Assembly: GCA_001314625.1 (NCBI GenBank)
Contig: LJSH01000001.1
Location: 558,001 to 622,000 of the forward strand
From: Oceanicaulis sp. HLUCCA04
GTDB taxonomy: Bacteria > Pseudomonadota > Alphaproteobacteria > Caulobacterales > Maricaulaceae
Direction: 5' to 3'
Length of the DNA stretch: 64,000 bases
Position 1 is the first letter of the stretch, and each line of letters opens with the position of its first letter. The notes beneath the pieces are model-generated. The model was not told where the DNA came from. It saw only the letters and a list, made by a program, of their open reading frames with translations, and searched no databases. Shown piece after piece: positions 17,554 through 18,444 of this stretch. Both the position numbers and the translations under genes were made by a program.

Positions 17554-17587
17554 AAAAAAGGCCCCGTCCGTGTGGTTGGAGGGGGCC
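17554..17587 (-). terminator. Rho-independent terminator of the pheA leader
   Basis: Six-base-pair GGCCCC/GGGGCC stem, extended by TCC/GGA after one mismatch, directly followed by six T residues on the minus strand (17559-17554). It lies 28 bp before the pheA start and after the leader peptide. Confidence 0.85.
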
Positions 17588-17635
17588 GTGAAATCCGTCT
17601 GGCTGAACTGTTTCGCGCAGATTTCACCCGCCCCC
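17554..17635 (-). promoter_or_regulatory. Transcription attenuator of pheA (antiterminator overlapping terminator)
   Basis: On the minus strand the arm GGGGGCGGGTGAAATC (17635-17620) can pair with GATTTCACGGCCCCC (17595-17581), leaving a small internal asymmetry. The same GGCCCC (17587-17582) is the 5' arm of the terminator that pairs with GGGGCC (17565-17560) before six T. The two folds exclude each other. The antiterminator's first arm overlaps the last codons and stop of the leader peptide, so a ribosome reaching the stop would block it, while a ribosome stalled on upstream Phe codons would leave it free. Confidence 0.8.
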
Positions 17636-17686
17636 GGCAAAGAGGCTGAAATAATAGCGGGTGGCGAAAATGCTGCGATTGCTCAT
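17624..17686 (-). CDS. pheA leader peptide (20 residues, Phe/Tyr-rich)
   Basis: The minus strand encodes MSNRSIFATRYYFSLFAGGG followed by TGA. Three Phe and two Tyr lie within ten codons (7-16), which is far above chance and is the hallmark of an attenuator leader for an aromatic biosynthesis gene. The final Gly codons and the stop form the first arm of the antiterminator. It lies 98 bp upstream of pheA. Its role as phenylalanine sensor is inferred from this arrangement. Confidence 0.82.
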   Translation of the reverse strand: MSNRSIFATRYYFSLFAGGG

Positions 17687-17799
17687 ACAGGCACTGTGGG
17701 GTTGAAACTCGCTCCGGTCAACGCCGCACGGCAATAGTCTTGGCAATATCATCGGTCCGTGAAACGCTGACCGTTCGCCAGACGAAGGAATGACCATCG

Positions 17800-18444
17800 A
17801 TGAAGCGCCTCGCCCTTGGACTTCTCACCCTGTCGCTTGCCGCCTGTTCGCCACCCGGCCCGAACGACGATCCCACAACGGCACCCGGCAATGCCGTGGA
17901 TGCACAGATCATTACCTCGCTGGGCACCATAACGCTGGAACTCTACCCCGAAGCTGCGCCCGTGAGTGTGGCCAATTTCGTGGCCCATGCCCAAGCTGGC
18001 CATCTTGATGGCGGGTCATTCTACCGGGCCGTCCGCCCGGACAATGACCGGCCCGGCATCGAGCCGATGCACCTCATTCAGGGCGGGTACGGGTTTGATG
18101 GTTTGCCCGATGCAGCCGGTATCGAACACGAACCCACCGGAGATACCGGCCTCTCCCATGTGCGCGGCGCCATCTCGATGGCGCGCAACGAGCCCGGCAC
18201 GGCAACCACCGAGTTCTTCATCATGGTGAATGACTATCCAGACCTCGATTCTGGACCCGACCGGCGCAACCCCGATGAGGCTGGCTACGCCGTGTTTGGC
18301 CAAGTGACGGGCGGAATGGATGTTGTCGAAGCTATCGCGGCACAGGACACTACTATCGACACCGCACCAGAGGACTTTCAGTATCCGCAATTCATTGTGG
18401 AGCCGGTGCGCATCGAGAGCGTCCGAATCCTGGACGGGGAGTAG
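17800..18444 (+). CDS. Secreted cyclophilin-type peptidyl-prolyl isomerase, probable lipoprotein
   Basis: 214 residues. The N-terminus MKRLALGLLTLSLAACSPPG is a lipoprotein signal peptide with lipobox L-A-A-C (Cys16). The cyclophilin core begins near residue 30 (IITSLGTITLELYPEAAPVS), with GGSFYRAVRP carrying the catalytic F-x-R, GAISMARNEPGTATTEFFIMV and YAVFGQVTGGMDVVEAI. The enzyme would isomerise prolyl bonds of proteins in the periplasm. It is divergent from the pheA leader and ends before a clear terminator hairpin. Confidence 0.92.
   Translation: MKRLALGLLTLSLAACSPPGPNDDPTTAPGNAVDAQIITSLGTITLELYPEAAPVSVANFVAHAQAGHLDGGSFYRAVRPDNDRPGIEPMHLIQGGYGFDGLPDAAGIEHEPTGDTGLSHVRGAISMARNEPGTATTEFFIMVNDYPDLDSGPDRRNPDEAGYAVFGQVTGGMDVVEAIAAQDTTIDTAPEDFQYPQFIVEPVRIESVRILDGE

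Follow-up and report, generated by a model that had tools for sequence, protein, structure and literature searches.

The bifunctional pheA gene of Oceanicaulis sp. HLUCCA04 is very probably regulated by ribosome-mediated transcription attenuation, with a short Phe-rich leader reading frame responding to charged tRNA-Phe and possibly to charged tRNA-Tyr as well. The switch is of the classical ribosome-mediated type, in a probably leaderless variant and in a new lineage. Its parts (Table 1) lie on the minus strand of the window, the 64,000-nucleotide stretch of DNA analysed here.

Table 1. The pheA leader region, in positions of the window
Feature	Positions	Strand	Details and basis
pheA, 392 aa	16348..17526	-	chorismate mutase (CM_2), prephenate dehydratase (PDT) and ACT domains
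U-tract, six T	17554..17559	-	sequence read
Intrinsic terminator hairpin	17560..17587	-	-17.1 kcal/mol; found in 46/46 leaders; covariation
Antiterminator 3' strand	17581..17607	-	final six bases inside terminator 5' arm; folding
Possible segment 1 partner	17603..17620	-	also within antiterminator
Antiterminator 5' strand	17612..17635	-	codons Gly18-Gly20, stop and bases after; outer stem 17635-17630 (Gly18-Gly19) with 17586-17581; inner stem 17627-17612 (final base of Gly20, the stop and bases after it) with 17607-17588; fold without terminator 3' arm, arm-swap, synonymous null
Leader reading frame MSNRSIFATRYYFSLFAGGG and stop	17624..17686	-	ATG at 17686, end of stop at 17624; 20 codons; Phe codons 7, 13 and 16, Tyr codons 11 and 12; no Shine-Dalgarno; sequence read
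Possible segment 1 (leader start)	17670..17686	-	can pair with 17620-17603 past the stop; duplex -12.5 kcal/mol
-10-like box CACAGT	17693..17698	-	spacer 17; end 6 nt before AUG
-35 box TTGACC	17716..17721	-	first base 35 nt 5' of leader AUG

An earlier note on this DNA, made from the sequence alone, had described a 20-codon leader with three Phe and two Tyr codons, an antiterminator arm over its last codons and stop, and a terminator with six T. All of these parts are present at the positions given in the note, with the Gly tail and stop of the leader paired in the predicted antiterminator fold, and the domains of the downstream gene bear out its identification as pheA. In folding, the region as a whole reaches a z of only -1.64 (12 of 200 shuffles are as good). 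A strict mechanical scan returned no promoter-like and no terminator-like sites, and Rfam searches at the gathering cut-off and at an E-value of 10 had no relevant match at the leader. Taken as a single sequence, the window makes a weak, only suggestive case for an attenuator; it is conservation that lifts the case above chance. A divergent gene for a cyclophilin-type peptidyl-prolyl isomerase (17800-18444, plus strand) lies between lon and the pheA leader of the window, and at the loci L020 and L023 the end of lon appears, by eye, directly 5' of the leader.

Bifunctional PheA, called where a match at E <= 1e-60 covered the two enzyme domains, is found in 51 of 137 Maricaulaceae genomes and in 8 of 19 genera. 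A leader precedes pheA at 46 of these 51 loci, in 8 genera, when TTGAC is required 34-38 nt upstream together with at least three Phe plus Tyr codons (an earlier filter gave 42/51). A short reading frame rich in the product amino acid thus lies directly before the biosynthetic gene, and an intrinsic terminator lies between leader and gene in all 46 cases; because of these two counts the attenuator stands beyond chance. Among the named relatives that were compared (Glycocaulis, Marinicauda and Woodsholea, 6 loci), the leaders read MSTRSIFATRYYFGLFTRGG in Glycocaulis albus, MITRNAFYLGFYFTPPRGG in Marinicauda pacifica and MNMRGFFFFGFYFGYPIGGS in Woodsholea maritima. Phe makes up 14.6% of residues over the 46 leaders. 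Four leaders in genus g5 (G259, G260, G262 and G263; loci L073, L072, L070 and L075) have a single Phe codon beside two Tyr codons, so that the amino acid sensed may have drifted there. No complete leader was recognized at five of the 51 loci (G026, G012, G028, G225 and G224). At G224 the end of a contig cuts the locus; the other four, in g8 (G012, G028 and G225) and g5 (G026), have bifunctional pheA without a recognizable leader and may represent losses.

In the terminator alignment of all 45 sequences, the paired cells and covariation score lie above those of 300 of 300 shuffles; 13 of the 300 shuffles reach the number of double-change pairs, and 64 reach that of extra pair types. For the antiterminator, RNAalifold found no consensus structure in a gapped alignment of 45 sequences (G226 left out), and an alignment-free arm-swap test was adopted after this result. 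Antiterminator arms from one and the same leader pair more strongly than arms exchanged between genera (P = 1.2e-4, 40,320 genus permutations), and the inner strands by themselves give P = 0.0038 between genera. For 19 selected representatives that are not independent of one another, none of 20,000 permutations was as good. Restricted to the terminator arm alone, the test is marginal between genera (P = 0.058) and gives P = 0.018, 0.031 and 0.0002 within g1, g10 and g5, respectively. The earlier note had named conservation in close relatives as a check, and the layout proves not to be absent there: it recurs in eight genera, and its arms co-vary.

The antiterminator also leaves a mark on codon choice. 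With the peptide held fixed and codon usage taken from pheA and lon of the window, the real codons give a lower antiterminator energy than the synonymous null in 20 of 20 representatives (mean z -2.24). Captured bases exceed the mean of this null in 16 of the 20, not in all. Against shuffles, the real antiterminator is more stable in 19 of 20 representatives (mean z -2.58). These results suggest that the Gly-rich peptide tail is RNA structure written in codons. Together, the folding, arm-swap and synonymous tests point to an antiterminator that would be mutually exclusive with the terminator and controlled by ribosome position.

Folding with a ribosome placed on the leader is consistent with such control. 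A ribosome set at the most favourable Phe codon is predicted to allow capture of 5 nt or more of the terminator 5' arm in 46/46 leaders (mean 8.39), and one set at the final Phe codon 4 nt or more in 45/46. When the ribosome is set at the stop codon, mean capture is 1.39 nt, with some capture in 20/46, and the terminator is kept in all 46. The terminator is also in the minimum-energy fold of the untranslated RNA in 45/46. The earlier note had proposed that stalling at Phe codons frees the antiterminator. In the window's leader, folding agrees with this for Phe7 and Phe13, where, as at Tyr11 and Tyr12, a stall is predicted to capture 6-7 nt of the terminator arm; at Phe16 the outer antiterminator strand would still lie under the ribosome, and only 4 nt are captured. 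The minimum-energy fold of this leader is without the terminator only for stalls at Tyr11, Tyr12 and Phe13. Over all leaders, only 14/46 have a Phe stall for which the minimum-energy fold no longer contains the terminator, and the switch is therefore taken to be kinetic.

In the mechanism proposed, transcription would begin with the first base (A) of the leader AUG, and a ribosome would load straight onto the 5' end. When Phe is scarce, the ribosome would stall at Phe13 or earlier and leave the GGGGGCGGGUGA tail free; the free tail would pair with the emerging 5' arm of the terminator, and RNA polymerase would continue into pheA. When Phe is plentiful, the ribosome would reach the stop and cover the tail, and the terminator would form. 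It would form too when no ribosome loads, aided in most relatives by pairing of the leader start (segment 1) with the segment that follows the stop (segment 2).

This 1:2 helix is present in the untranslated minimum-energy fold of 33/46 leaders. It lies mainly over nt 5-16, and 19 of the 46 best duplexes include a start-codon base. In swap tests between genera it gives P = 0.00097 for nt 1-24 and 0.016 for nt 1-15, compared with 0.97 and 0.25 for two control region pairs. Within genera, 0 of 5000 permutations were as good in g10, and the test gave no support in g5 (P = 0.49 and 0.09) or in g1, Glycocaulis (P = 0.92 and 0.59). The helix is missing from the minimum-energy fold of the window's leader and of three other Glycocaulis leaders, which weakens the case for this pairing in the window.

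Promoter spacing and the absence of a Shine-Dalgarno sequence, which the earlier note did not mention, make it probable that the leader mRNA is leaderless. The distance from TTGAC to the ATG is 35, 36 and 37 nt in 21, 13 and 12 of the 46 leaders, where a range of 34-38 nt was built into the rule. When reading frames were instead chosen at the 51 loci by Phe plus Tyr density alone, with the start moved back by as much as 9 nt where an in-frame ATG was available, 45/46 lay 35-37 nt from TTGAC and one lay at 30 nt. In a search that allowed five offsets, 45/46 had a hexamer carrying A at its second and T at its sixth position, with a spacer of 17 or 18 and its end 6 or 7 nt before the ATG. Median anti-Shine-Dalgarno pairing over the 46 leaders is +0.70 kcal/mol, and SD-like four-mers occur in 3/46. 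For Caulobacter, 375 leaderless mRNAs are reported in PMC4117421.

One might suppose instead that the leader follows a conventional 5' UTR and that its promoter lies further upstream. In favour of such an arrangement, the 45 -10-like hexamers begin with C rather than T, and the strict scan returned no promoter-like site. It is nonetheless improbable given the constant 35-37 nt between TTGAC and ATG in 46/46 leaders, none of which has strong anti-Shine-Dalgarno pairing (-4.5 kcal/mol or better). Far less probable still is the absence of any switch, with the hairpin acting as a constitutive terminator and the peptide having a function of its own, as action in trans has been described for the S. 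meliloti leader peptide peTrpL (PMC7298713). At least half of the terminator pairs are kept at every Phe stall in 32/46 minimum-energy folds, as a constitutive terminator would have it. Against this stand the loose conservation of the peptide, alongside preserved Phe richness, tail codons and arm pairing, and the lack of any such leader at 34 one-domain PDT loci.

A question of a different kind is whether the leader senses Tyr besides Phe, and thereby the general aromatic supply. Tyr codons occur in 45/46 leaders and make up 9.8% of residues, the four g5 leaders with one Phe codon have two Tyr codons, and two of the three stalls at which the window's leader loses its terminator in the minimum-energy fold are at Tyr. 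Dual sensing is nevertheless rather unlikely, as a search for a metabolic reason gave none: of 17 sampled genomes that encode bifunctional PheA, 16 contain one or more additional chorismate mutase matches, and the sole sampled genome without one (G025) has a leader lacking Tyr codons. The idea that the Tyr codons reflect PheA as the only chorismate mutase is unsupported in view of the extra matches in those 16 genomes.

Among the loci examined in the order, the leader occurs only before bifunctional pheA. Of the 34 loci in the same order that encode a one-domain prephenate dehydratase, none carries the chorismate mutase part (4/4 bifunctional controls were positive) and none combines a Phe leader with a terminator; two show a reading frame that contains Phe but lacks a terminator. 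A leader with terminator was found at 0 of 18 trpE, ilvB and pheS loci in six genomes, three of these loci having reading frames without a terminator, and a search for leaders of these genes by promoter spacing gave nothing convincing. Bifunctional PheA itself was found in 1 of 385 genomes of a class-wide sample (E <= 1e-55), the window's own, and in 11 of 398 genomes of a phylum-wide sample (E <= 1e-75).

Attenuation of pheA is given for gammaproteobacteria in passages of PMC5343134, and no alphaproteobacterial Phe attenuator appears in the excerpts consulted of PMC2864571, PMC2704228 and PMC2965389. The literature search, which covered neither the main survey (Vitreschak 2004) nor the 2022 review by Evguenieva-Hackenberg, either of which could bear on novelty, found no report for alphaproteobacteria including Maricaulaceae. 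The present results thus add to the range of Phe attenuation a family of alphaproteobacteria without an earlier report in that search; the type of switch is itself known. The conserved and probably leaderless leader raises a testable question, namely how ribosome loading is matched to the timing of RNA polymerase without a ribosome-binding site.

The enterobacterial pheA (pheL) attenuator (RF01859, Phe_leader) precedes the same gene and likewise has a Phe-rich leader followed by an antiterminator and then a terminator. RF01859 has no match in the window, and under strict filters none of 136 family genomes reaches its gathering cut-off of 55 bits. One of eight sub-threshold matches falls on a pheA leader (G141:C33:100032-100159, 34.6 bits) and the other seven lie elsewhere; the match in G141 hints at shared ancestry with the enterobacterial element. 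Five loci are presumably of enterobacterial type, being so called from their FFFAFFFTFP leaders. By eye, such loci and g10 Maricaulaceae have similar GGGAGGCGG and GGCCTCCC strands. The five differ from the Maricaulaceae leaders in having TTGAC 55-57 nt upstream rather than 35-37 nt, and anti-Shine-Dalgarno pairing of -3.3 to -5.1 kcal/mol compared with the median given above. Their leader stop lies just before a GGGAGGC strand, whereas the antiterminator 5' strand in the window includes the Gly tail and stop.

The promoter spacing of the Maricaulaceae leaders recurs in f227, a distant family of the same phylum that we take to be Shewanellaceae. PheA matches are present in 111 of its 116 genomes and are 35-39% identical to PheA of the window. 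Of 30 f227 loci examined (of 111), 27 have TTGAC 35-37 nt before the ATG together with a TAnnnT box; strong anti-Shine-Dalgarno pairing occurs in 3 of these 27. The leaderless-looking leaders are among L131-L133 and L173-L197, and L128, L172 and L182 lack them. In 17/27 the leader stop appears, by eye and from sequence only, at or just before a GGAGGCGG strand. Regulation by a pheA leader is listed for Shewanella in passages of PMC2659441. We suggest, tentatively, that leaderless Phe attenuators could be a recurrent design shared by Maricaulaceae and this distant family, and that bifunctional pheA may have passed from one class to another along with its leader. Where a 1:2 helix forms, the switch would read timely ribosome loading as well as tRNA-Phe charging, because that helix covers the ribosome loading site. 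Within the alphaproteobacteria, the comparable system is the S. meliloti trpL attenuator (rnTrpL, peTrpL), whose leader mRNA likewise starts with its AUG according to passages of PMC10117765, and which serves Trp and trpE where the present element would serve Phe and pheA.
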